Assembly: GCA_905236545.1 (NCBI GenBank)
Contig: CAJOQO010000079.1
Coordinates: forward strand, 1 to 28,791
Length of the DNA stretch: 28,791 bases
DNA from: an uncultured Lachnospiraceae bacterium
GTDB lineage: Bacteria; Bacillota; Clostridia; Lachnospirales; Lachnospiraceae
Direction of reading: 5' to 3'
A model generated the notes under the pieces. That model worked only from the letters and a program-made list of their open reading frames with translations. It had not been told where the DNA came from and made no database searches. This document shows, piece by piece, positions 1 to 22,611 of the stretch (the first letter of the stretch is position 1; each line of letters starts with the position of its first letter). A program made the position numbers and the translations under genes.

Positions 1-579
1 ATCGATGATCCGGAGGACGACTTCGTTCCTTCGGGAGGCACGATATGGAGGGGAGCCGTCTCCTCCCGCGGACGAATCACGTTTACAAATCGTCTGGCAG
101 ATTTCACTGTCGCAAAAACACTGCGCTCCGGTGACCCGCAGCACAGATTTGTATTCTGCCTTCTCGGCCCGAATCATCTTCCCCTGCGCGGCGTTTCTTA
201 TTATCTGGTCGGGGAAGACGGGAATCTGACCGGGACGGATCCGAATAAGACTGATGAAAACGGTCATTTTACACTGAGCGGAGGAGAGAGAGCCATATTC
301 TGCGCGCTTGAAAAAGACGCTGTTTTCAGTGTGCGCGAAGAAAGAGAGATGGGATACCGGCAGCTGATCCCGGCTGAAGAGTCAGGTTATACGGATCTTG
401 TGGTGAAGAATGGTATTCCCACCCTTTTATTTGAAAATGAGCAGACAGATGTCAGGCTTTTCGTTCCGGCACTGGGCGGATCCGGGATCGTTCTTACGCT
501 TTGCATCGGAATCGGCGGGATGTTTGTCTGGGGATGGATCATCGTGGCAGGCATAAAAAAGAAAGGGCACGGATCATGA
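1..579 (+). CDS. C-terminal part of a membrane-anchored surface protein with Cna-B-like repeats (5' end outside window)
   Basis: Frame 1 is open from the first base to the TGA at 577-579, giving the last 192 residues of a larger protein. Residues 1-32 look like the end of one beta-sandwich repeat, closing on FTN with Asn30. Residues about 34-150 form a complete repeat: start TVAKTL (Lys39), middle SVREE (Glu113), end LFENE (Asn146). This Lys/Glu/Asn spacing resembles Cna-B or pilin domains that make internal Lys-Asn isopeptide bonds; bond formation is inferred. A sorting-signal-like tail follows: VPALGG (155-160), a hydrophobic segment at about 163-185, then KKK. The pentapeptide is not a canonical LPXTG, so wall linkage by sortase is uncertain, but membrane anchoring is likely. 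The stop overlaps the next start (ATGA), indicating one operon. Ligand and role cannot be read from the sequence. Confidence 0.85.
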   Translation: MDDPEDDFVPSGGTIWRGAVSSRGRITFTNRLADFTVAKTLRSGDPQHRFVFCLLGPNHLPLRGVSYYLVGEDGNLTGTDPNKTDENGHFTLSGGERAIFCALEKDAVFSVREEREMGYRQLIPAEESGYTDLVVKNGIPTLLFENEQTDVRLFVPALGGSGIVLTLCIGIGGMFVWGWIIVAGIKKKGHGS

Positions 580-3500
580 GAAAAAACAGGGAAGGGAAGA
601 TGAGAGAAACAAGGTTGAGGCGAAGGGCTGCGGCTTGCGGCATGTCGATTCTGCTGAGTCTGACAGGTCTGATATCCGTGCCGGGGGTAGAGACGGAACG
701 GGAGATAACCCGTCTGAAGCCGTCGGATGCGACAACGCAGACCATCCGGGAAACGGAGTTTACCGGGTCGGAGGCGGATACTTCCCGCGAACCGGAAGGG
801 CTGGCGCCAGGAGGATCGGACGGGATCGATCCTTCCATGCCGGAAGGGGCGGCGCCCGGAGAAACGGACGGAATGGATCTTCCGGCACCGGATGAAACGG
901 AGTCTGACGGAGCAGGTTTTTCAGCGCCGGATGAAACGGAGCGTACGGCCCCTGCCGGCATGAATCTGCCCGGACCGGATGAGCCGGTCCTCGCCGGGCC
1001 GGTGGAACTGAATACGGGAGGACTGATCCTGGATCCGAACATGGGAAGCCAGGCGGGCTGCGTGCCGGATGCACTCTTTGACGATGCACAGAATCCGGAT
1101 ACGGAGTTTCCGGAAACAGAAGCTTTGGTTTTCCTTGACGGCGGAATCAGGAAAAAAGGATTGGATACAGAGCATCCCGTAAAGGATAAGCTGTCGGATA
1201 CGGAGCCGGAGAATACGGACGGCCAGGGTACGGAAAAAAAGGATGCGGGAAAGCCGGATCCTCTCATTCAGGGGCCGGAAGAAGACCCGGATCCGGAGGC
1301 TGCAGAGCGTGGAGGAACCGCTTCTGAGACCGAGAGCGAAGGAGAGATGGCGCCTGCGCTCTACGGCTATGAGCATTCTCTGACGCTCAGGGAGCTGGCG
1401 CTTCTTCCCGAAGAAATCGCGGGTGCTGCTACGGAAATCGATCCGGATCAGCTCCATGTGCGTGGAAGGGCAGACGGCATGCTGATGGCTGCTGCGGAAG
1501 AGCTCTCTCTGTGGACCTGCTCAGATTATTATGTAAATGAGCCGGATCTTCATCATGTCTCGAAAACGGATGACTTTTCCCTGAAATATCAGATTGAATT
1601 CCATACATCGACCGATCTGGAGGAAGGAAGCGTGGAGATCAGGGTTCCGGAGGCGCTTCTCAGGGACCGGTCTTCCCAGGCTGTCAATCCCTGTCAGATC
1701 GGCGTCCCGAAAGGAACGCCGGACGCGTTTGCCGAAAGCCTGAACAGTCCCTTTAACTGGTATCGAGACACTGCGGAGGAAAGCCTGGTATTCTTCAATT
1801 ATCGTCCGATCGCTTCCGGAACCAACACTGCGTTCCAGGTTCTTTATCATCCGGTAGAGATCTTTTCCCTGACGGACGGATCCGAATGGACTGTCACACC
1901 GCAGATTGAGGTTCGCCTGTCAGACGGATCGAAGCAGAGCCGTTCCATGGAGGAACTGAGCGGAAGCATCGACTCGGGAGCGGAGCTTTTGTCAGCCAGC
2001 GCGGATGCATTTTCCGACGGTACGATCAGCTGCATGCCTGCCCTCTATACGAAGGATCAGGTACAGAGAGTGCTCGGCGGCAGCCTTCCCGCATATCTGA
2101 ACGGGCAGGAGAAGGAATGGCTGTTCGTTGCGTGGAGGATCGACAGCCAGGGGCAGTTCAGCCAGCCATGGACGATGCAGATCGACGGGGAACTGTCCGC
2201 CTCCGGGGTCAGCGGAACGGATGACTCCTTTGTGGTGGGGAGCATCACACGGATCGCGGGTGCGGCGGAGGGAAGCACGGGGGACGGAAGCATCGTGAGC
2301 CGGTACGTTCCACAGGAGCGAGGCTTTGCGATTGCGGCGCTTTCTTCTCAGGATCTGAGCCGGTATACCGGTCCCGGAAGGTTTCATCTTCTGACAACGG
2401 TCGTTACTGCTGTGCGGAAGCGGGCGCTGAAGAACAATGCGTCCGTAATCAAGCTGGATGCGGCTCTTGCGCTGACTCCGTCGGACGGGCTCGATGAGGT
2501 CAGCACAAACACCGCGCCGGCATCCTGGACATTTGTTGACTACGAATGGAAATACAGGGGAAACGATGTCGGAATCTTTGCCTGGACCGGGGAGCCTTCC
2601 TCCGGCGGAACGGTTTCCTATAACAGGCGCAGCGTCTCTCTGAGCGGGTGGGTCAATGAATACCGCCTTATGAAGGAATCCGGAAAGGAGGCGGGAAGTG
2701 TTCCTCTGAGAATCCGGTCTGAATGCAGGGGATATGCCTGCACGCATGAGACAGAGGGAAGCGCGGCGGGAAGCTACAAAGACGGATGCGGCTATGAGGT
2801 TACGACGGTGGATGACGCCTTGTATCTCGCAGGCCTGAGTGACGAAGCAGGCCAGGGCGTACAGCTTCTTGGCGCGCAGGATTACTATTATACGGATGTG
2901 ACTGTCAGTATCAGGGACAGGGGGATGGATGTCTATGAGGACCGGACCTGTGCGCCGATGCCGGAGGAAGAATGTCCCGGCGCGGACCGTTCCACAACGA
3001 TATGGGCCATGTATGAGAATTCCGATGATTTTGAACTGGCGGCAGAGCTTCCGTGGAACAGCTCCGGCAGGATCAGCTATACCTTCCCGAAGCAGCAGCT
3101 CCAGAGAAAGATCTGGAGAGTAAAGGTGGTTCATCATGCTGCAGACTATGACTCCTTCTGCACCATCGATTCCAGACTCTGTATAAAGCCGGGCAGCCCG
3201 GTGTGTGAAAGGCTTCTCTCGCAGGCCGGACCGGACACGCTGACGGCTTTTGAGGTGGAACATCTTGGGTCGGTGCTGGCAAGAAGCACGGGGGGAGATT
3301 CACAGGAATGGTTCCATGACACCTCAGACGAACAGTATGATGAGGATTCCGAACCGGGACTCGCAGACCTGACAAGATTCCTGTACGGGATCTTTTCGAT
3401 GAGGGCGAATTCCTTTGCCCGCCTCACTTCCCTGAAAAAGCATGCGAAGGCGGTTAAGTCTGTTTCCCGGGAAAATGACCCTGTAAACGGCTGTATCCGC

Positions 3501-6500
3501 CTGACCTGTACGATAGGTGCTGTGGAAGGATACCGGATCTACAGCAAAGAAGCGGCGCAGCGGATCGCGGCAGGAAATGTGCAGCTGACAGCGCCGGACC
3601 GAAGGTCCTACAGAATCTATGATCTGCTTCCGGCGGGAGTGACGCTGGATCCCTCGGTTTTGCCGAAGGCCGGTCTGGTGATGGGAGACAGCGATCAGGA
3701 TCTGGTGACCGCTTCCCTGTGGAACTGCAGGGATGTGAGTGTGCGGATCGATCCGGAGACGGGAGTGATCCCGGACTGGAAGCATACCGGCCGGCAGATG
3801 GTGATCCTGGATGTAACGATCGGTCTGGAGGAAGAGTCGGTTCCCCGGATGAATGGAGAGATGTGGCTGAACGGGGCAGGTGTTCAGTTCAGCGCTGTCT
3901 GTCCGTACCGCGATCTGAAACGCATGAAGACCATGCCCAATATCGCCGCCGTTATGCCGGGAGAGCGGCCGGAGGATCCTGACATGCAGCTGATCGGAAC
4001 GGAGGATGAGGTATCCTGCGACGATGGGTGTGTGATTTCGTTTTCCGGAGAGGATAAGAGGCAGCTGGAGGTATTCGGGGCGGATATTGACTCTGACCAT
4101 GTCACTTCGCTCAGAACCGTACTGTATGCCCTCGCCCGATGTGACAGCGATCAGGCGGTCAGTCTGACAGACGGAATCGATCTTACCGTCAGGCCGGACG
4201 GGGATCTGTATTCAGACTGGGAAAGGAGCGCTGTTGTCGGCGAGGAGGATCCGTATTCCTACCGGATCGATGTGACAAATGTCTCAACCCAGCCCATCTC
4301 CGGGATTGTTGTTCTGGCGCATCTGGAGATTGCCGGGGAAGAAAGAAGGACGGCTGAGAGCGGCCGCATCTTCGATGAGGATTCCTGGCAGGGCGTCCTG
4401 CGATCGGTCGATGTCCGGGACGCGCAGCGTATGGGAATCGTTCCTGTTGTCTGGCTGAATGAGGACCGTCATGCCCCGCTTCCCGGAGAAGGGCATCCGC
4501 CGGATGATGTTCTGAAAGCGGAGAATGGCTGGGTCCGGCTGGAAAGCTGGGATCAGGAGAAAACGGCGTGCTCCGTTGCGGTAGAGCTTCGAAGAAAAGA
4601 AGACGGCAGCAGCTTCTGCCTGGAGATGGGCGACTGCGTCAGGCTGTTCCTTCGCATGGATGCGCCCGGGATCGGCGAGGGAGAAGGAAAGACAAACGCG
4701 GAGCATGCTTATCAGTGCGTGTCATTTTACAGCACAAGTCCGGATGAGCCGGAGGGCGATCTTGTGCAGGGGAATGCCGTGGAAGTGACGTTGAAAAAGA
4801 AGAAGACGCTGATCGTGGAGAAGGTTCTGGCAAATGAGCCGTCCCACGCGCAGAAAAAGGATGCCTTTGTGTTCCGGCTGACGGCAAACGGCAGTGCCGC
4901 CGCGCTTCATGAATACCGTCTGGAGACCCGCACGGAGGACGCGGAGGGAAGAACGGTGTGGTCGGAGGACGGCAATCTTCACACAACCGGCAGGGAAGGA
5001 CTGTTTCAGCTGGCGGCAGGCCAGCGGGCGGTCTTTGAGGAGATGGCAGGAGCCGATGACCTCGAGGCTGAGGAGATCAGATCCTCCTGTTATGAGCTCA
5101 ATATGCAGGAGGAGACTGCTTCGGAAGGAAGAGTATGCCGGTTTGAAAACACCTGGTATCCGACCCTGTATCTGACGAAGAAGGTACTGGGGGTTCCGGA
5201 AGGAACCATCCTGCCGGAGGATGCGTTCCGCGTGCGTGTAACATCCGGCGGGAACAGTCTTGCCGGAAGGCCGTACTGGACGGTGGATCCTGAGAAAGGC
5301 CTGGTGGAGAATCAGGTTCTGGAGGAGCATCAGATTGATGAGGACAGCTGTGTGCTGCTGCATGCAGGGGAGACGATCGCTTTGCATCCCGGGGAGGCCG
5401 GATGCAGCTTTGAGGCAGTGGAGGACAGCGCATGTACGGGAGAAGGGACGGACTACGCAAAAGTTGACTGTGAAAAGAGCGGAATCCTTTTACCGGAGGA
5501 AACGGCTGTCACGCTCGAAAATGCGTGGAGATGGAAGGAACTTCATCTCCGGAAGGAGGTTCTGCACAGAGAGGCGGCTCTTTGCAATGAAGCCTTTTCC
5601 TTCCGCCTTTGGAAGATGAAGGAAGGATTCGAGGCGGCGGCATTTGATCCGGACCATCCGGATCTGTCTGCGGTGCCGGTGCCGGGAATCGAGGGAGTGA
5701 TGGAGGATACCGGATTCGTGACAGATGCGCAGGGGGGCTTCAGCCTTGTGTGCGCCGGCAGGGAGATCACCCTGAAGCATCTGGAGGCTCTTGCGTCTTA
5801 CGTAGTTCAGGAGACGGACTGTCCCGCGGACTATGCGATGATGAACCGGGGATGTACGTCAGCTGTCATGCCGCTTCTGGGGAGCGGAAAAAGCGTGGTG
5901 ATCCGGAACAGCTGGAAGAAAAGAAGCCTTGAAGTATCCAAGGCGGTTTTATCCGGCGTAAGGAAAAACCGGACAACGGTATTCACTCCGGGATATCCGG
6001 GAACCATTTCTCCGGAAGACGCGATGAAGCCATTGTTCTCTTACTCCTCAGCACAGATGACCGGCTTCACGGTGACATTTCCCTGCGCGGTTTCCCTGAT
6101 CGGGGACGAGCGCCTGCGCGTGATATCCGGAGACAGGGACATCGGATCCTTCCGGGGCTCCATAGCAGCCGGAACCACAAGAACCTACAGCGGCTGCTCC
6201 CAGGTATCTTTCGAACTGTGGAGACTTACGGAAAACAACAAGAAAGGCTTCTTCTTCTATTTCAGTCCGGTCTTTGGAGAGAATCAAAGCGGAGGGGCTG
6301 ACAACAGCGGAAAGACCTTTACCTTTCTTCTGGAGCGATCAGACGCGTCCGGAACGATGCAGCCTTCTTCGGATACCCCCTATCTCAGATCAGACGGGAG
6401 GCAGCTCAGGACAGATCAGGATGGACGGTTTACGCTGGAAGGAGGAATGAAGGCCACCTTTACGGATCTTGATACGGAAGGCACCCGGTGGAGAGTGACG

Positions 6501-8300
6501 GAGACTCCTGATCCGGCCTGCCCGCAGGCCTATCCCGCAGGGCTTGCTCCGCAGAGCGGAACGCTCGGGGACGGCGGGGAGGATATGGCGCATGCTCTGT
6601 TTATCAATGGACAGGATTGCCAGGGGATGGTCCGGAAGCAGTTTACGGCTGCTTCGGGAGACCAGGAGGCTCAGGACTATCTGGAGGCCGAGCAGGCAAA
6701 GGGAGGCGCGTCTTCCCTCCGGACGGTTTTCCTGATCGAGATGGAGCAGGGAGGGGCATTCGCTCCTCTCACAGGTCCTGTCAGCGTGGCGGATGCTTCA
6801 GACGGATCACTGCAAAGATGCGAGTTGACAGACGGCCGGATCTGCCTGTCCGAACAGCAGACCCTCCTTCTGTCCGGGTTTCCCGAGGGATGCAGGTTCC
6901 GGGTTTCCGAGCAGAAGGGAGGAACATGGATGCGGGACGGTGTGGTCTATGACATGATCTGCACTGCGCCGGGCAGAGACGCGCAGGCCTCAGGCAGTCT
7001 CTCCCCGCAGATGACGGATCTTGTGTTTGTCAATGAGATTCACAGTGTAAAGCCTTCTCAGGAAACCCTGATCGTAAAGAAGTTTCCTCCGGAAAGCCAC
7101 GGATGGGATCAGGTTCCGGACGGAGCCGTACTTGCGTTTTGCCTGGAGCGGTATGAGGGGGGAGACTGGATTCCGGCAGAAGGCGTGGACTGGGTGCAGT
7201 GGCTGAACGGATCTGCCATCGGTCCGATCCGGCAGACCGGCGCGGACGGTATCATAAGGCTTGTCAGGGAGCCTTCTTCCTCGGAAGCATCTGCAGCGGG
7301 TTATCCGGTTCTTCCGGCTGCTGTCTCGGACGGCAGCGTGCGGAGTGAACTGTATTATCTGGAGCACGAGGCGCAGGAGGGAGACCTGCGTGTCAGGGAG
7401 GTTCCGGATCTGTCGGATCCGTCCTTCGGCATGATGATCGGATGTGAAGGCAATACCTTTGTCAATGAAAATGAGATGGACAGCTGTGTGGTGGAGAAGC
7501 AGACAGATGTTAAGAGCGATCAGGAGTTTACCATACAGATTCTTCAAAAGCTTCAGGGGCTGAGCCTTCCGGGAAAGTATCTGCCTTATACGCTGCGCGA
7601 TGCGGCGACCCGGGAAGTGACAGGAAATGGAAAGACGGATGCGCAGGGCTGTTTCCGGATCAGGGGAGGACAGCAGGCAGTTTTTTCCTTTGCCAGGGGA
7701 AGCAGCTGGGAAATATCGGAAAAGAACAGCGGAAACTGGACGCTTTCCTCCTGTACGATGGAGAACGCGGTCCTTGCACCGGCGGACACGCCAGGAGGCA
7801 TGGAATTTGAGATCGAAGTGATCCGACATGACGTGACGCTTACATCCGAACTTCTGTCCTCACAGCTGACCGATCCGGCCACGGGAGGGATTCTTGATTT
7901 CTCTTCCCTGGACATCACGATCCCGCATTATGTGAAAAGAGGAGACGAGCTTCTTGAGATCACACAGATCGGAGAAGGGCTGTTCAGCGGTTCCGACATC
8001 CGGTCGGTTACCATCGGACAGGGAATCCGGTCGATCGGGGCGGAGGCATTCAGCGATTGCTATAATCTGTGCCGGGTTTCTCTTCCGGATTCCCTGGAAT
8101 CCATTGGCGATTACTGCTTTTTCATGACTTCGATCCGTACGCTGGAGATTCCGTCCAGGGTGAAGGAGGTCGGGGAAGACGTGACGGGGGCATGCTATTA
8201 TCTGGAGCAGGTTATAATTCATCAGAATCAGTCAGAAAGCCCTCTTTCCGGCTATGAATGGAGTGACGGAGCAGATATCAGTGTTGTTTTTACAGGATAA
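576..8300 (+). CDS. Giant secreted multi-domain surface protein: Cna-B-like repeats and C-terminal BspA-type LRR
   Basis: About 2574 aa. The start at 576 overlaps the upstream stop (ATGA); an in-frame ATG at 600 behind GGGAAGGGAAG is a plausible alternative. Either start gives a signal peptide: Arg-rich n-region, then a hydrophobic core at about residues 20-37. Residues about 45-265 are low complexity, rich in Pro, Asp, Glu and Thr with loose PDETE-like repeats, probably a stalk. Residues about 265-1405 look beta-rich and are not assigned. Seven consecutive repeats begin near 1411, 1530, 1655, 1784, 2017, 2162 and 2303; each opens with a (V/L)xK segment, and all but the last close with an (F/L/I)xN segment, as in the upstream protein. 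Residues about 2439-2574 match the LRR_5/BspA pattern (TIGQGIRSIGAEAFSDC). No transmembrane segment, sorting motif or wall-binding repeat is seen at the end. Probable adhesin-like extracellular protein; ligand unknown. Confidence 0.85.
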   Translation: MRKNREGKMRETRLRRRAAACGMSILLSLTGLISVPGVETEREITRLKPSDATTQTIRETEFTGSEADTSREPEGLAPGGSDGIDPSMPEGAAPGETDGMDLPAPDETESDGAGFSAPDETERTAPAGMNLPGPDEPVLAGPVELNTGGLILDPNMGSQAGCVPDALFDDAQNPDTEFPETEALVFLDGGIRKKGLDTEHPVKDKLSDTEPENTDGQGTEKKDAGKPDPLIQGPEEDPDPEAAERGGTASETESEGEMAPALYGYEHSLTLRELALLPEEIAGAATEIDPDQLHVRGRADGMLMAAAEELSLWTCSDYYVNEPDLHHVSKTDDFSLKYQIEFHTSTDLEEGSVEIRVPEALLRDRSSQAVNPCQIGVPKGTPDAFAESLNSPFNWYRDTAEESLVFFNYRPIASGTNTAFQVLYHPVEIFSLTDGSEWTVTPQIEVRLSDGSKQSRSMEELSGSIDSGAELLSASADAFSDGTISCMPALYTKDQVQRVLGGSLPAYLNGQEKEWLFVAWRIDSQGQFSQPWTMQIDGELSASGVSGTDDSFVVGSITRIAGAAEGSTGDGSIVSRYVPQERGFAIAALSSQDLSRYTGPGRFHLLTTVVTAVRKRALKNNASVIKLDAALALTPSDGLDEVSTNTAPASWTFVDYEWKYRGNDVGIFAWTGEPSSGGTVSYNRRSVSLSGWVNEYRLMKESGKEAGSVPLRIRSECRGYACTHETEGSAAGSYKDGCGYEVTTVDDALYLAGLSDEAGQGVQLLGAQDYYYTDVTVSIRDRGMDVYEDRTCAPMPEEECPGADRSTTIWAMYENSDDFELAAELPWNSSGRISYTFPKQQLQRKIWRVKVVHHAADYDSFCTIDSRLCIKPGSPVCERLLSQAGPDTLTAFEVEHLGSVLARSTGGDSQEWFHDTSDEQYDEDSEPGLADLTRFLYGIFSMRANSFARLTSLKKHAKAVKSVSRENDPVNGCIRLTCTIGAVEGYRIYSKEAAQRIAAGNVQLTAPDRRSYRIYDLLPAGVTLDPSVLPKAGLVMGDSDQDLVTASLWNCRDVSVRIDPETGVIPDWKHTGRQMVILDVTIGLEEESVPRMNGEMWLNGAGVQFSAVCPYRDLKRMKTMPNIAAVMPGERPEDPDMQLIGTEDEVSCDDGCVISFSGEDKRQLEVFGADIDSDHVTSLRTVLYALARCDSDQAVSLTDGIDLTVRPDGDLYSDWERSAVVGEEDPYSYRIDVTNVSTQPISGIVVLAHLEIAGEERRTAESGRIFDEDSWQGVLRSVDVRDAQRMGIVPVVWLNEDRHAPLPGEGHPPDDVLKAENGWVRLESWDQEKTACSVAVELRRKEDGSSFCLEMGDCVRLFLRMDAPGIGEGEGKTNAEHAYQCVSFYSTSPDEPEGDLVQGNAVEVTLKKKKTLIVEKVLANEPSHAQKKDAFVFRLTANGSAAALHEYRLETRTEDAEGRTVWSEDGNLHTTGREGLFQLAAGQRAVFEEMAGADDLEAEEIRSSCYELNMQEETASEGRVCRFENTWYPTLYLTKKVLGVPEGTILPEDAFRVRVTSGGNSLAGRPYWTVDPEKGLVENQVLEEHQIDEDSCVLLHAGETIALHPGEAGCSFEAVEDSACTGEGTDYAKVDCEKSGILLPEETAVTLENAWRWKELHLRKEVLHREAALCNEAFSFRLWKMKEGFEAAAFDPDHPDLSAVPVPGIEGVMEDTGFVTDAQGGFSLVCAGREITLKHLEALASYVVQETDCPADYAMMNRGCTSAVMPLLGSGKSVVIRNSWKKRSLEVSKAVLSGVRKNRTTVFTPGYPGTISPEDAMKPLFSYSSAQMTGFTVTFPCAVSLIGDERLRVISGDRDIGSFRGSIAAGTTRTYSGCSQVSFELWRLTENNKKGFFFYFSPVFGENQSGGADNSGKTFTFLLERSDASGTMQPSSDTPYLRSDGRQLRTDQDGRFTLEGGMKATFTDLDTEGTRWRVTETPDPACPQAYPAGLAPQSGTLGDGGEDMAHALFINGQDCQGMVRKQFTAASGDQEAQDYLEAEQAKGGASSLRTVFLIEMEQGGAFAPLTGPVSVADASDGSLQRCELTDGRICLSEQQTLLLSGFPEGCRFRVSEQKGGTWMRDGVVYDMICTAPGRDAQASGSLSPQMTDLVFVNEIHSVKPSQETLIVKKFPPESHGWDQVPDGAVLAFCLERYEGGDWIPAEGVDWVQWLNGSAIGPIRQTGADGIIRLVREPSSSEASAAGYPVLPAAVSDGSVRSELYYLEHEAQEGDLRVREVPDLSDPSFGMMIGCEGNTFVNENEMDSCVVEKQTDVKSDQEFTIQILQKLQGLSLPGKYLPYTLRDAATREVTGNGKTDAQGCFRIRGGQQAVFSFARGSSWEISEKNSGNWTLSSCTMENAVLAPADTPGGMEFEIEVIRHDVTLTSELLSSQLTDPATGGILDFSSLDITIPHYVKRGDELLEITQIGEGLFSGSDIRSVTIGQGIRSIGAEAFSDCYNLCRVSLPDSLESIGDYCFFMTSIRTLEIPSRVKEVGEDVTGACYYLEQVIIHQNQSESPLSGYEWSDGADISVVFTG

Positions 8301-11762: not shown

Positions 11763-12530
11763 ATGGCACTTCTGGAAGTGACGAATCTCGGCATCTCCTT
11801 CGGCGGTCTGCAGGCGGTTTCCGGCTTTGAGCTGAAGATCGACAGCGGTCATCTTTACGGACTGATCGGTCCGAACGGCGCCGGCAAAACAACGGCGTTT
11901 AATATGCTTACCGGTATGTATGTTCCAAGTCAGGGCAACATCGTTCTCGACGGGGTGGATATCACCGGAAAGAGTCCGGAATTCATCTCCAAGGCGGGAA
12001 TCGCCCGGACCTTCCAGAACATCCGCCTGTTTAAGGGAATGTCCGTCCTGGACAATGTCAAGGTCGGTATGCACAACAGGGTCACCTATAGCATGTGGCA
12101 CGGTATCTTCCGGGACGGCGTGTTCCGCGACCGGGAAAGAAAGATGAACGAGAAGGCCATGGAGCTCCTGAATGTGTTCGGGATTGCCGACAAAGCGGAC
12201 TATGTGGCGTCTCAGCTTCCCTACGGTGAGCAGAGAAAGCTCGAGATCTGCAGGGCGCTGGCTTCCGATCCGAAGCTGCTCCTGCTGGATGAGCCTGCCG
12301 CCGGAATGAATCCGAATGAGACGCTTGAGCTTCGCGAGACGGTGAGGAAGGTACGGGATGACTTCAGGATCGCCATTCTCCTGATCGAGCATGACATGAA
12401 GTTTGTCATGGGGATCTGTGAGGAGATTACGGTTCTTGAATATGGAAAGATCATTTCGCATGGTGATCCGGAAACAGTCAGCAATGATCCGCGTGTCATC
12501 GCTGCATATCTGGGAGGTGACGACGACTGA
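11763..12530 (+). CDS. livG: Branched-chain amino acid ABC transporter ATPase LivG
   Basis: 255 aa. The ATG at 11763 is chosen over the in-frame ATG at 11754: AGGAGG (11748-11753) would abut the earlier start but lies 9 bases from this one. The ATPase motifs are complete: Walker A GPNGAGKTT from residue 36, Q-loop in RTFQNIRLF, the LPYGEQRKLEICRAL signature typical of LivG, Walker B LLLLDEP, and the switch His in LIEHDM. It hydrolyses ATP to drive import together with LivF. It sits 1 base after livM and overlaps livF, so it belongs to the same operon. Confidence 0.95.
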   Translation: MALLEVTNLGISFGGLQAVSGFELKIDSGHLYGLIGPNGAGKTTAFNMLTGMYVPSQGNIVLDGVDITGKSPEFISKAGIARTFQNIRLFKGMSVLDNVKVGMHNRVTYSMWHGIFRDGVFRDRERKMNEKAMELLNVFGIADKADYVASQLPYGEQRKLEICRALASDPKLLLLDEPAAGMNPNETLELRETVRKVRDDFRIAILLIEHDMKFVMGICEEITVLEYGKIISHGDPETVSNDPRVIAAYLGGDDD

Positions 12531-13252
12531 TGGGGGAAATTCTGAAGATAGATAATCTGAATGTTTACTATGGATCGATTCATGCGATCAAGGATCTGTC
12601 CCTGTATGTCAAGGAAGGCGAGATCGTCACGATGATCGGCGCGAACGGCGCGGGGAAGACGACGACCATGCACGCGATTTCCGGACTCCTGAAGTCGCAG
12701 AGCGGTTCGATCACGTATGATGGCAGGCTGATCTCGAAGATGGATGCCTATAAGATTGTGACGCTGGGCCTGGCGCAGTGTCCGGAGGGGAGAAGGGTTT
12801 TCTCCGGGCTGACGGTGCAGGAGAACCTGGAGCTGGGGGCTTATACCAGAAAGGATGGGAAGGCTGCCGTCCAGAGTGATTTTGAGATGGTCTTTGAGAT
12901 GCTTCCCAGGCTGAAGGAGAGAAGAAATCAGCTTGCGGGTACTCTTTCCGGCGGCGAGCAGCAGATGCTTGCGATGGGACGGGCCCTGATGTCGAAGCCG
13001 AAGATGCTTCTTCTGGATGAGCCTTCGATGGGCCTGAGCCCGCTTCTGGTGAAGGAAATCTTTAAGACGATTGTCCGTGTCAATGAGAATGGTGTTACGG
13101 TGCTTCTGGTGGAGCAGAATGCGAAGATGGCGCTGAATATTGCGAATCGTGGTTATGTGATCGAGACGGGGAACATTACCATGGAGGGGAAGGCGTCGGA
13201 TCTTGCGAATGATTCGAAGGTGAAGCAGGCTTACCTGGGCGGAGCCGCGTGA
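12530..13252 (+). CDS. livF: Branched-chain amino acid ABC transporter ATPase LivF
   Basis: 240 aa, usual length for LivF. The start overlaps the livG stop by one base (TGATG); GGGAGGTGA lies about 9 bases upstream. Motifs: Walker A GANGAGKTT from residue 37, the LivF-specific LAQCPEGRRVFSGLTVQENL region, ABC signature LSGGEQQMLAMGRAL, Walker B MLLLDEP, and VLLVEQNA in the switch region (a Gln-Asn following Glu is normal for LivF). Second ATPase of the importer and last gene of the operon. Its stop codon lies inside the first unit of a 20-bp tandem repeat. Confidence 0.95.
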   Translation: MGEILKIDNLNVYYGSIHAIKDLSLYVKEGEIVTMIGANGAGKTTTMHAISGLLKSQSGSITYDGRLISKMDAYKIVTLGLAQCPEGRRVFSGLTVQENLELGAYTRKDGKAAVQSDFEMVFEMLPRLKERRNQLAGTLSGGEQQMLAMGRALMSKPKMLLLDEPSMGLSPLLVKEIFKTIVRVNENGVTVLLVEQNAKMALNIANRGYVIETGNITMEGKASDLANDSKVKQAYLGGAA

Positions 13253-13303
13253 TTTCTTCCGCTGCAGCGTGGTTTCTTCCGCTGCAGCGTGGTTTCTTCC
13301 GCT
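13249..13303 (+). repeat. 20-bp tandem repeat at the end of livF
   Basis: About 2.75 copies of GTGGTTTCTTCCGCTGCAGC: 13249-13268 (one mismatch), 13269-13288, then a partial copy from 13289. The first unit contains the livF stop codon. A degenerate relative (TTTTTCGGCTGTAGC) occurs at 13544-13558, inside the spacer between the two 155-bp elements. Confidence 0.85.
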
Positions 13304-13321
13304 GTTCTGCTGCAATGGAGT

Positions 13322-13369
13322 TGAAGGGATTGCCTTACAGCTATGGATCTGAAGGGGTTGCCTTACAGC
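13322..13369 (+). repeat. Pair of 20-bp direct repeats, 28-base period
   Basis: TGAAGGGATTGCCTTACAGC (13322-13341) and TGAAGGGGTTGCCTTACAGC (13350-13369) differ at one base. They lie between the tandem repeat after livF and the left 155-bp element. No coding role is seen. Confidence 0.8.
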
Positions 13370-13381
13370 CTTAAAGGACGT

Positions 13382-13536
13382 GCCCGCCGCAAACCTGTAG
13401 CCCGCTTCGCTGAGCTAACTGCTAACTACGATAAGGCGTCCGGGGTATTCATCGAACGATGCATTCATACCCCGGACGCCTTATCTCCGTAAGCAGTGGA
13501 TCTCAGCTCGCTCCTGCAAATGGTTTGCTTACGGGC
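13382..13536 (+). repeat. 155-bp structured repeat element, left copy
   Basis: The element starts with GCCCG and ends with CGGGC. It reads as an imperfect palindrome. The core is a perfect 18-bp stem, 13431-13448 with 13467-13484, around an 18-base loop. Outside it are ACTGCT/AGCAGT (13418-13423 with 13492-13497), GCTGAG/CTCAGC (13409-13414 with 13502-13507) and GCAAACC/GGTTTGC near the ends. It is 142/155 identical to the reverse complement of 13722-13876, with no gaps. Ten of the 13 differences make five compensated pairs (13411-13505, 13423-13492, 13432-13483, 13433-13482, 13437-13478). No ORF or poly-T tract is evident. Family not recognised; it could be a mobile hairpin repeat or a structured RNA. 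Confidence 0.9.
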
Positions 13537-13721
13537 ACGATCCTTTTTCGGCTGTAGCGCAGCTTCACGATGCCGTAATATCTGTTACAGGGTATACCCT
13601 GATCAACGTGCTGCAGCCAGGGTGTGACTCATAACGCCATTGTTCCACCAGCTCCGAAGATAGTACGCGGACGGCTGAGCACGGAACGGCAACGGAGAGA
13701 TCAAAGCGGAAGAAGCGACGG
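13537..13721. other. Non-coding spacer between the inverted 155-bp elements
   Basis: 185 bases with no convincing ORF on either strand. The edges show weak continued inverted similarity (about 13543-13555 against 13703-13715) that also resembles the 20-bp tandem repeat after livF. Together with the two arms it makes a unit of about 495 bp (13382-13876), whose arms extend weakly to AAGGAC at 13374-13379 and its complement at 13879-13884. Confidence 0.6.
13588..13601. repeat. 14-bp perfect palindrome CAGGGTATACCCTG
   Basis: Perfect two-fold symmetric sequence in the spacer between the two large inverted elements. It could be a dimeric protein binding site; nothing else supports a role. Confidence 0.5.
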
Positions 13722-13876
13722 GCCCGTAAGCAAACCATTTGCAGGAGCGAGACGAGATCCACTGCCTACGGAGACCTGGAGTCCGGGGTATGAATGAATC
13801 GTTCGATGAATACCCCGGACTCCTGGTCGTAGTTGGCAGTTAGCTCGGCGAAGCGGGCTACAGGTTTGCGGCGGGC
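13722..13876 (-). repeat. 155-bp structured repeat element, right copy (inverted)
   Basis: Reverse-complement copy of 13382-13536, same length, 13 substitutions. Its core stem pairs 13774-13791 with 13810-13827, with a single T-T mismatch (13777/13824). Relative to the left copy, five base pairs are changed on both sides so that pairing is kept. One change falls in the loop. Two are one-sided, each creating a mismatch. The element lies between the spacer and the 3' end of pyrI, so the two copies sit between convergent operons and could also block read-through from either side. Confidence 0.9.
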
Positions 13877-13879
13877 CAG

Positions 13880-13962
13880 TCCTTCTGGAGCGGAAGATAT
13901 GGAAAAGAAACCTCCGCAGCATAATATGCCTGCGACACGGATCTGTCCTTCCGGAGCGGAAG
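13880..13962 (-). other. Two copies of a small hairpin downstream of pyrI
   Basis: TCCTTCTGGAGCGGAAG (13880-13896) and TCCTTCCGGAGCGGAAG (13946-13962) are direct repeats differing at one base. The second forms a perfect stem CTTCCG/CGGAAG with a GAG loop, 16 bases past the pyrI stop in the direction of pyr transcription. No T-tract follows on the minus strand, so an intrinsic terminator is possible but not classical. Confidence 0.5.
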
Positions 13963-13978
13963 CCAGGTGCGGAAAAAC

Positions 13979-14434
13979 TCAGCTGCGCTTCTTCGCACTG
14001 TGATACTTCTCCTCACAGTAAATACAGCGATAAACCTCCGCCTCCTCATCCGCCAGATAAAAAACATGATCCAGCCCCTGCTCAATCGAAGTAATACAGC
14101 GCGGATTCTTACAGTGAATGACATTAATCAGCTTCCTCGGAAGACGCAGATCACGCTTTTCCACAATCTTGGCGTCCTTGATAATATTCACCGTAATCGT
14201 GTGATCAATAAAACCAAGCGCGTCCAGATTAAGATGCTCAAGCGGAGCCTCTACCTTAATAATATCCTTCTGCCCCATCTTGCTGGAACGGGCATGCATG
14301 ATCATGGCAACCTGGCAGTCCATCTTATCCAGCTTCAGCCTCTTGTAAATATCCATGGCCTTTCCGGCGGGAATGTGGTCGAGCACGACGCCTTCATGAA
14401 GGCCGCCGATATTCAGCATATGTTCCTGGCTCAT
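13979..14434 (-). CDS. pyrI: Aspartate carbamoyltransferase regulatory subunit
   Basis: 151 aa, the usual PyrI size. The C-terminal zinc-binding domain has all four cysteines, Cys108, Cys113, Cys137 and Cys140 (HCKNPRC and CIYC), which hold the contact with the catalytic chains. The N-terminal half carries the nucleotide-binding allosteric domain ([14 protein letters not shown] at about 20-33 is typical). It tunes PyrB activity in response to nucleotides. The start overlaps the pyrB stop by four bases (14431-14434), so the two subunits are translationally coupled, suiting their fixed stoichiometry. A complete, intact gene. Confidence 0.95.
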
Positions 14435-20090: not shown

Positions 20091-20145
20091 CAGAAGAGAA
20101 AACGGAAAACAAACCGCCGGGATCAGGAAGATGAGAGGAATGGTT

Positions 20146-22611
20146 ATGGCGAAGAGTGTGTCCGATAAGGTGACTGCGGAAAAGGCTAAGACTACAGAGA
20201 AGGCGAAGACCGCGGAGAAAGAGAAGGCCGCGGAAAAGGCTAAGACTACAGAGAAGGCGAAAGCCGCGGAAAAGGGGAAGTCTGCGGAGAAAGAGAAGAC
20301 CGCGGAAAAGGCAAAGACGTCGGAAAAGGCAAAGACCGCGGAAAAGGAGAAGGCTGCAGAGAAGGAGAGGGCTGAGAGTACATTGGAAAATGACGGATTC
20401 TTCAACCCTGCCTGGTACACGAACCGTGAACTGAGCTGGCTGGACTTCAATTACAGGATTCTGGACGAGGCGCGGGATAAAACAAATCCTCTTTTTGAGC
20501 GGATGAAATTCCTGTCCATCACGGCGTCCAACCTGGATGAGTTCTTTATGGTCCGGGTTGCGTCCCTGATGGATATGGTTCACGCAAAGGTGAGCAAGCC
20601 GGATCTTTCCGGACTGACGGCGGAAGAACAGCTTCTGAAGGTGGAGCAGAAGTGCCATGAACTGATCGACCGCCAGTATTCCACGCTGTCCAGATCCCTG
20701 ATTCCGGCTCTTCGCAATGAAGGCTATGATCTGGTTACAAACCCTGAGGTTCTGAATGAAGCCCAGAAGGAATACCTGAAGAATTACTTCAAGAAGACGG
20801 TCTATCCGGTTCTGACGCCGACCGCCGTGGACGCCTCCAGACCATTTCCGCTGATCAGGAACAAGTCCCTGAACATCGGCGCATTGATCTCCAGACGCAA
20901 GGGGGAAGGAGAGAAGAATCCGGTCGGAATGACCTTCATGAAGAACCTTCAGAAAAACGGGGAGAAGATCGCGAACAAGATCTCCAGGGATAAGACGCTG
21001 AAAAAAGGAACGATGTTCGCGACGGTTCAGGTCCCGACGGTTCTCCCCCGCGTTGTCCGGATTCCGGACGGGAAGGACGGAAAGATGGCGGGCGTTCTTC
21101 TTGAGGATCTGATCAAGGCGAATCTGGACATTCTGTTTGCAGGATATGATGTCGTCTGCGCCCATGCTTACAGGATCACCAGGAATGCGGATATGGAGCT
21201 TGATGAAGATGAGTCCGATGATCTTCTGGAGGAGATTCAGAGTAAGCTGAAGCAGCGCCAGCGGGGCGAAGTGATCCGGTTTGAATATGAGGATTCAATG
21301 AATGCAAAGCTGCTTAAGATCCTTCGCCGCGAGTTTAATGTGAGCGACATGGAGATGTATCCGATCTCCGGACCGCTTGATCTGACTTACCTGATGAGGT
21401 TCTATTCTCTGCCGGGCTCCGACCGGCTGAAGGACAGTCCATGGACGCCCCAGCCGAATCCGGTGATCGCAGGCCACCAGGGGGAGGATCTGTTTTCGAT
21501 GATCCGGAAGGGAGATATCTTCCTGTCCCATCCGTACCAGACCTTTGACCCGGTCGTGGACCTGATCCGCACAGCGTCGGTTGATCCGGATGTTCTTGCG
21601 ATCAAGATGACGCTCTACCGTGTGTCCGGGCATTCGCCTATCGTTGCCGCGCTTGCGCATGCAGCCGAAAACGGAAAACAGGTGACGGCACTCGTGGAAC
21701 TGAAGGCCCGCTTTGATGAGGAGAATAATATCCAGTGGGCGGAAATGCTCGAGAAGGCAGGCTGTCACGTGATCTACGGCCTGGTCGGCCTGAAGACCCA
21801 CAGCAAGATTGCCCTGGTGGTGCGGCGCGAGGAGGACGGAATCCGCCGGTATGTACATCTGGCAACGGGCAATTACAATGATTCGACGGCAAAGCTGTAC
21901 ACGGACTGCGGGATCATGACATGCGCGGAGCCTTACGGGGAGGACGCGACAGCGGTCTTCAACATGCTGTCCGGATACAGTGAGCCCCGCAGATGGAACC
22001 GCCTGCACCTGGCGCCCATCTGGCTGCGCGACGCATTTTTCGGGCTGATCGACCGCGAGATTCAGCACGCGGTGGACAATGAGCCTGCCCATATTACAGC
22101 CAAGATGAATTCTCTGTGTGACAAGGAGATCATCGCGAAGCTGTATGAGGCGTCTGCGGCAGGAGTGAAGATCGACCTGATTATCCGCGGTATCTGCTGC
22201 CTGAAGGTGGGGATTCCGGGCGTTTCCGAGAATATCACGGTGCGTTCCATCGTGGGAACCTTCCTGGAGCATGCGAGAATCTTCCGTTTCGCGAATGGCG
22301 GCAATGAGGAAGTCTTCATGAGCTCGGCGGACTGGATGCCGAGGAATCTGGACCGCCGTGTGGAGATCCTGTTCCCGCTGGAGGATGAGGAATGTAAGGC
22401 GCAGGCCTGCCACATCCTGGATGTCCAGATGTCTGATACGCTGAAGGCACATATCCTGAAGAGCGATGATACCTATGAGAAGATTGACCTGAGAGGAAAA
22501 CCCAGAATCGGCGCCCAGGCAACCCTGATGAAGGAGGCGCTCAGTTCCGCCGCCCCGGAGAATGATCCGGTGCGCAGCCGGACGTTTACCCCTGCGCGGG
22601 CGGAAGGATGA
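20146..22611 (+). CDS. ppk1: Polyphosphate kinase 1 with an N-terminal Lys/Glu hexapeptide-repeat tail
   Basis: 821 aa. It reversibly transfers the gamma phosphate of ATP to polyphosphate. The ATG at 20146 lies 6 bases after AGAGGA; ATGs at 20131 and 20140 have no good site. The core starts near residue 83: [20 protein letters not shown], then the head domain, then two PLD-like catalytic domains. The phosphorylated histidine is His552 (LKTHSK) and the second key histidine is His709 (LEHARIF); HLATGNYND and [14 protein letters not shown] are also typical. Between residues 11 and 76 lie eleven perfect-length hexapeptides of the type AEKAKT. This tail is absent from ordinary Ppk and is probably disordered or helical and highly charged. 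Directly downstream of the ppx-like gene. ispG starts 4 bases after its stop. Confidence 0.95.
20176..20373 (+). repeat. Eleven in-frame 18-bp repeats in ppk1
   Basis: The stretch is exactly 11 x 18 bases, encoding (A/T/S)EK(A/E/G)(K/R)(T/A/S) each time. Codons vary between copies (for example gcggaaaaggctaagact and gcggagaaagagaaggcc), so the repeat is partly diverged at DNA level but conserved in protein charge pattern. Such an array could change copy number by slippage between strains. Confidence 0.92.

Follow-up and report, generated by a model that had tools for sequence, protein, structure and literature searches.

Two long inverted hairpins between convergent genes

The window, that is, the whole 28,791-nt stretch of DNA analyzed here, contains two long hairpins in inverted orientation that lie between the ends of two convergent genes, which we take from their sequences to be livF and pyrI (Table 1). 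This confirmed the placement of the pair between convergent genes in the first-pass annotation, with the livF-type gene on the forward strand and the pyrI-type gene on the reverse strand flanking the copies. Realignment of 13382-13536 (forward strand) with 13722-13876 (reverse strand) reproduced, exact to the base, the gap-free match of 142 of 155 positions with 13 differences described earlier. Ten of these differences, as judged by eye on the fold and the alignment, made up the five reported two-sided changes that keep pairing (13411/13505, 13423/13492, 13432/13483, 13433/13482 and 13437/13478); the remaining three were also assigned by eye as described, one to the loop (13461) and two to broken pairs (13481 and 13506). 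Folding supported one long hairpin per copy, none of the 200 shuffles being as stable in any of four folds. The 155-bp unit gave −82.8 and −74.6 kcal/mol for the two copies on the given strand and −89.1 and −84.4 kcal/mol on the opposite strand, with z scores of −7.9 to −10.5 over both strands. On the opposite strand, the GA...GA of the apical loop could form a tandem sheared G-A motif. The GCCCG...CGGGC sequences, which had been read as the sharp ends of a discrete element, proved to be internal: a repeat search of the window extended the inverted arms to 13374-13553 and 13705-13884, and copy 1 folded from 13354 to 13566.

Table 1 Genes and hairpin features at the livF-pyrI junction of the window
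Feature	Position	Strand	Basis or remark
livF-type branched-chain amino-acid ABC transporter ATPase gene	12530..13252	+	ORF and coding-model gene call; stop codon forms the left flank
pyrI-type aspartate carbamoyltransferase regulatory-chain gene	13979..14434	-	ORF and coding-model gene call; stop codon forms the right flank
Hairpin copy 1, whole folding unit	13354..13566	+	RNA fold of 13340-13570, −122.5 kcal/mol, z −10.7
Inner 155-bp unit of copy 1	13382..13536	+	Self-alignment and folds
Conserved 3x3 mismatch loop, 5' side	13427..13429	+	TNC here, GNA on the opposite strand
Conserved 3x3 mismatch loop, 3' side	13486..13488	+	Alignment counts
Apical loop, copy 1	13449..13466	+	TC...TC; GA...GA on the opposite strand
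Spacer separating the inverted copies	13554..13704		Without predicted gene; no strand
Hairpin copy 2 with outer arms	13711..13886	-	Repeat search and folds
155-bp unit of copy 2	13722..13876	-	Self-alignment and folds

Other repeats were seen in the window. Between livF and copy 1, the stretch 13253-13367 has short direct repeats, TTTCTTCCGCTGCAGCGTGG and a 28-bp pair (13312-13339 and 13340-13367). In-frame 18-bp repeats at 20131-20391 code for a stretch rich in lysine and glutamate at the N terminus of what is presumably a polyphosphate kinase. An open frame of 2599 aa (501-8300), in which domains repeat, probably codes for a surface protein, an impression gained from its translation.

The hairpins belong to a dispersed family

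The pair consists of members of a widespread, dispersed family of ~200-bp self-folding DNA repeats found between the genes of many gut and rumen bacteria. A blastn search of the window's own genome (349 contigs with a total of 2.4 Mb, completeness 72%) returned 47 matches, a figure that exceeds the number of full copies, with many matches being partial, some contigs holding two and one match being a window copy aligned to itself reversed. At least 24 of the 47 touched contig ends, and hairpin repeats of this kind may explain some of the breaks in these assemblies. The 16 arms compared within this genome were nearly identical, which would be a sign of a recent local burst.

A covariance model built from 34 copies found matches in 12 of 61 genomes, every one of these being among the 19 members of the window's genus, and none, under stricter filters, in the 42 sampled genomes outside it. 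A degenerate pattern run over named genomes recovered at least 119 stretches, 80 of which were taken as loci, under the labels Lachnospiraceae, Blautia, Dorea, Acetatifactor, Eubacterium, Clostridiaceae and Clostridia. Matches under these labels indicated that the family exceeds the genus, yet is patchy. The model gave 93 matches on the 80 loci, partial reverse-strand matches included, and 45, 38, 24, 19, 16, 8, 8 and 7 matches in eight whole Lachnospiraceae assemblies that carry names, the richest of which were G061 (45) and G062 (38). Several subfamilies of the element coexist in a genome. The covariance-model search proposed with the original observation yielded many further copies whose stem changes were overwhelmingly compensated; the first outcome named there as refuting, further copies with uncompensated stem changes, was thus not found.

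None of the 4227 Rfam families matched the window at the gathering score, and a permissive threshold returned 10 weak matches, the best of them to microRNA families and far below the cut-offs. Plasmids and phages searched by distant blastn contained no element match, and the same was true of viral contigs searched with one exact degenerate pattern. Titles and abstracts of the literature, as far as they were covered, described no such family in Lachnospiraceae, and the family is apparently hitherto undescribed.

Stems change in pairs while mismatch loops are kept

Pairing was maintained across the 34 copies to an extent consistent with the earlier proposal that the hairpin itself is under selection. 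Standard pairs filled 96.7% of the 1015 pair cells, compared to 82.2% after shuffling and at most 42.3% when the pairing partners were slid. Two-sided change was observed in 28 of the 30 core pairs and in 159 cells, as opposed to 43 cells after shuffling, and one-sided changes to another standard pair accounted for just 3 cells on the aligned strand. Embedded in these changing stems, a 3x3 internal loop reading TNC/TNC on the aligned strand (GNA/GNA on the opposite one), with a free middle base, was present in 31 of the 34 copies of alignment A2 and in 63 of the 70 copies of A3; an A-A mismatch was kept in 31 of the 34 copies of A2. The outer stems varied even among the copies of one genome and remained largely complementary.

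Wobble pairs were rare on either strand. In the core they leaned to the strand opposite the model, with 21 G-U against 3 A-C in A2 and 44 against 23 in A3, both counted with a dubious short helix (134-141) omitted (14 and 2 cells of A3), and the loops, which are purine-rich on that same strand, agreed with this lean. The lean was reversed in the outer arms of three genomes (18:12, 16:4 and 29:0), an outcome to which fixed pairs contributed. Wobble counts were therefore dropped as an indicator of the acting strand, and owing to this disagreement between core and outer arms, we make no choice between RNA and single-stranded DNA, or between the two strands.

Head-to-head pairs and a modest preference for gene ends

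Where two elements lay at most 700 bp apart, 17 of 18 neighboring pairs in four assemblies were head-to-head, one was tandem and none was tail-to-tail, as counted from the matches listed for these assemblies (44 of 45, 35 of 38, 21 of 24 and 15 of 16). All 18 belonged to G061 and G062, and the other two assemblies counted had none. The window's own genome contained three head-to-head pairs (C79, C68 and C7). In each of the six inverted pairs of G062, one hairpin was shorter than the other and the middle between them (~260-280 bp) was conserved, and the 11 pairs in G061 had middles of 116-389 bp that were mostly unalignable, with those at L302 and L304 being related copies.

Two further arrangements were seen. 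At five loci of G063 (L353, L354, L356, L357 and L358), a second conserved module, apparently with inverted arms of its own, lay to the right of the hairpin. The C68 (L004) and C7 (L003) pairs of the window's genome shared the same outer stems and had, by eye, seemingly swapped their apical stems; both are near contig ends, where misassembly is possible.

Among 97 element places examined, a list that excludes partial and reverse-strand matches and in which no fewer than three places appear twice (L174/L069, L182/L073 and L189/L051), none was inside a predicted gene. The same list underlies the loop counts given above, the stop and start distances of tandem copies and the GACG counts given below. 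Both neighbors were known for 74 elements, of which 27 and 23 lay in tandem contexts in the two orientations, 17 between convergent and 7 between divergent genes. In tandem contexts, 33 of 50 copies were closer to the upstream stop codon (median 70 nt) than to the downstream start (147.5 nt). Compared with the remaining junctions that span 80 bp or more, convergent junctions were enriched (Fisher p 0.036) and divergent ones were not depleted (p 0.81). Taken together, the elements have a modest preference for gene ends. The window itself carries one copy after each of its two convergent genes, and a terminator scan of 13200-14050 found a single terminator-like site, inside pyrI, where 0.9 was expected by chance.

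Presence and absence at shared junctions, and constraint in place

The pyrI gene was matched in 17 of the 19 genomes of the window's genus, and in eight other members of the genus a 240-aa livF-like gene converges with it. In these eight relatives ~100-265 bp of element-free DNA separates the two genes, compared to 726 bp with two elements in the window, and the element profile matched none of 16 pyrI loci from other genomes of the genus. Several of the element-free junctions contained, by eye, an apparent bidirectional terminator. A second case was provided by G008, in which a ~260-bp insertion starting 11 nt past a stop codon is absent from G016, the flanks of the two genomes being 87% identical on the left and 83.5% on the right. 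As judged by eye, the left insertion point coincided with the left end of the hairpin, and ~40 bp more followed beyond its right end; CCGT and CCGC flank the insertion, a possible short duplication (3-4 nt) that is not clean and was seen at this one site. Presence and absence at these two junctions backed the suggestion in the first-pass annotation that the pair could be a mobile repeat, and gave the insertion polymorphism by which MITEs are recognized, here between species rather than strains. Another supposed empty site, the G013 counterpart of the gene beside L068, was discarded: it is element-free, but its other neighbor gene differs.

At four sites common to two genomes where both copies were intact, the hairpin cores were 98.6, 98.6, 98.5 and 100% identical, compared to 89.1, ~94, 96.5 and 99.5% for the flanking genes and 75, 67.5, 80 and 98.2% for the surrounding intergenic DNA, in the same order. 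Exact tests against the gene rate gave 1.4e-5 and 0.019 for the first two sites; the fourth (100 versus 99.5%) carries little weight. At a fifth shared site (L061), the element had decayed in two other genomes (2/3), and constraint in place is thus not universal. Intact shared pairs were detected because they were still recognizable, so that this sample is biased to conserved copies.

Search for a mobilizing enzyme

A look for a RAYT/IS200-type transposase gene elsewhere in the genome had been suggested as a check. The occurrence of PF01797 (Y1_Tnp) did not track the family. This domain was not found in the window's own genome, G002 and G013, nor in the richest assemblies G061 and G062 or in G066-G068. 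It was present in the element-bearing genomes G005, G008 and G018, in five of ten further assemblies (G063, G064, G065, G069 and G070), and also in two genomes in which the search for the element found nothing, G003 and G006. Of the 33 Y1 matches, 30 loci were read, and none had the hairpin on both sides; two (L492 and L498, the same place in G065) held an element on one side, less than 500 bp from a broken PF01797 frame.

One locus (L401:235-1833) has a gene with PF09820 and PF08011 domains between a half copy, truncated as seen by eye, and a full hairpin, and PF09820 matches occur in several copies in some relatives (10 in G013, not all of them complete). This gene was rejected as the carrier, since none of 30 loci (of 43 places; 13 of the 30 from element-bearing genomes) matched the arms; PF09820 was not found in 8 of the 12 element-bearing genomes of the genus. 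Seven arms of G061 outside its 44 listed matches were considered as elements split by a gene insertion and proved to be internal deletions (L468, L469, L470 and L473) or half elements (L471, L472 and L474). Pfam domains beside the half elements were MgtE, PHP, ThiG and radical-SAM/BATS, and fn3 beside L470, with no transposase among them. Overall, no gene between the arms of one hairpin was found among the 30 PF09820 loci, the seven unpaired G061 arms and the 30 Y1 loci, using a profile derived from the window's genus.

The 12-base sequence GTTACTGTTCAC forms the outer end of the hairpin in G065 (isolate C64_1) and occurs 105 times in G065, 44 times in G063, twice in G061 and not at all in G062. 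G065 also holds a separate repeat of 132-133 bp whose ends, in the pairs examined, read GTTACTGTTCAC...GTGAACAGTAAC (for example, L378:1501-1632). With such a distribution, and with this ~133-bp repeat bounded by the same sequence, GTTACTGTTCAC was dismissed as a family-wide terminal motif. Segments between distant inverted GTTACTGTTCAC motifs (L401 and L402) contained no gene recognizable by eye as a transposase.

Discussion

We favor, at a probability of roughly 60%, the reading that both hairpins are copies of a palindromic mobile repeat that is non-autonomous, a REP- or MITE-like element of giant size (~200-260 bp) that extends through much of the Lachnospiraceae. A trans-acting enzyme, whose existence we infer from the insertions, would recognize the folded element, with the conserved loops as its signature, and would move or copy it to give both single insertions and head-to-head pairs. 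After insertion, some copies may be kept because a strong hairpin is useful near a gene end, where it could end transcripts or shield convergent genes from each other.

Dispersed bacterial palindromes are usually short and fixed in sequence. ERIC of enterobacteria and NEMIS of Neisseria are large palindromic MITEs of ~100-200 bp. Like these two, and like EFAR of Enterococcus and YPAL of enterobacteria, the present family comprises many-copy intergenic hairpins with a proposed RNA role near genes. We know of no report of deep covariation, freely changing stems and conserved mismatch loops in these four families, which are set apart from ours by their descriptions rather than by sequence. The ends of IS200/IS605 elements are imperfect hairpins with mismatches that are recognized on one strand; our hairpins share this imperfect, mismatched form, but no Y1 transposase tracks them. 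The six composite pairs of G062 recall BIMEs and REPINs, in which inverted hairpins likewise form one unit, although the units here are several times larger and lack a RAYT association, and a single ~200-bp hairpin far exceeds a RAYT-associated REP or REPIN of 20-40 bp.

The main text of PMC3733652, in which the word Firmicutes is absent, names EFAR and YPAL and presents REPs as short, fixed-sequence palindromes. It describes CGTC-tagged REPs, with a stem of 8-9 bp and a loop of 4-5 nt, as dispersed palindromes that form head-to-head dimers, heterodimers included, lie mostly downstream of genes and have no known dedicated transposase (PMC3733652). The hairpins studied here resemble the CGTC-tagged REPs of that account in being palindromic, dispersed, paired head-to-head and placed near gene ends, and differ from them in their ~200-bp length and conserved internal loops. 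GACG, which is CGTC on the other strand, was located no more than 45 nt from the core in 38 of the 58 copies that come from beyond the window's genus (control side 2 of 58) and in 3 of 36 copies inside it (control 2 of 36), as scored by sequence. The family also shows the traits of a MITE in the broad sense, being short, non-coding, dispersed and bounded by terminal inverted repeats. It works like a REP or a MITE; its assignment to any named family is unsupported.

Several other explanations were weighed. The hairpin could be a structured RNA, a 3'-UTR element or a small RNA selected as RNA, for example, for ending or protecting transcripts, whose dispersal is secondary. Compensated pairs, mismatch loops that are conserved and, on one strand, rich in purines, core wobble leaning to that strand and the lower divergence of shared-site hairpins relative to their flanking genes would all fit such an RNA. 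Against it, orientation to neighboring genes is nearly even (27 versus 23 in tandem contexts); wobble is rare on both strands and leans the other way in the outer arms, and no Rfam family matched at the gathering score. We regard a structured RNA as possible and on balance doubtful.

A somewhat improbable explanation is an ordinary MITE derived from a classical DDE transposon, consisting of long terminal inverted repeats joined by a deletion and moved by an insertion sequence of the host. It would account for the palindromic arms, for the ends, seen in several genomes as points where homology is lost, for the possible 3-4-nt duplication at the G008 site and for the sharing of GTTACTGTTCAC between the hairpin and a separate repeat in one genome. 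However, the ends are not the same from genome to genome and the arms change while staying complementary, unlike the fixed ends that a transposase recognizes, and no element carrying a gene between its arms was found among the candidates read.

Compensated changes may also arise free of selection, through correction of an imperfect palindrome by template switching, which predicts the large excess of two-sided over one-sided changes that we observed (159 versus 3 cells). Template switching would erase the mismatched loops, yet TNC/TNC and A-A persist in most copies, and intact shared-site copies evolve more slowly than the flanking genes; we consider this origin unlikely. A REP or REPIN moved by a RAYT (an IS200/IS605-type Y1 transposase) is very improbable: head-to-head pairs and positions near gene ends resemble the REPs in the main text of PMC3733652, and some element-bearing genomes encode PF01797, in one place beside an element, but the domain is missing from the genomes richest in hairpins, occurs in two in which the element was not found and was enclosed by hairpins at none of the 30 Y1 loci read. 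Hardly credible is a gene-less remnant of a mobile element carrying the PF09820/PF08011 AAA-ATPase/nuclease gene, which would fit the arrangement at L401 alone, with no match to the arms at the 30 loci read and no PF09820 found in most element-bearing genomes of the genus.

The mobile palindromic repeat that we favor admits a broader and more tentative version. The Lachnospiraceae as a whole might harbor hairpin transposable elements recognized by shape and not by sequence, in which the stems drift in pairs and the non-canonical loops stay fixed. An undiscovered enzyme would act on the element folded as a single strand and mobilize it, frequently in head-to-head pairs, and many copies would have been adopted as gene-end devices, evolving thereafter more slowly than the genes around them. 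Here a ~200-bp repeat, matched by the model up to 45 times in a genome, combines RNA-like covariation with clear presence and absence between relatives. It provides a case in which to test whether recognition of a mobile element can rest on shape, and how selfish repeats come to be permanent components of gene ends.
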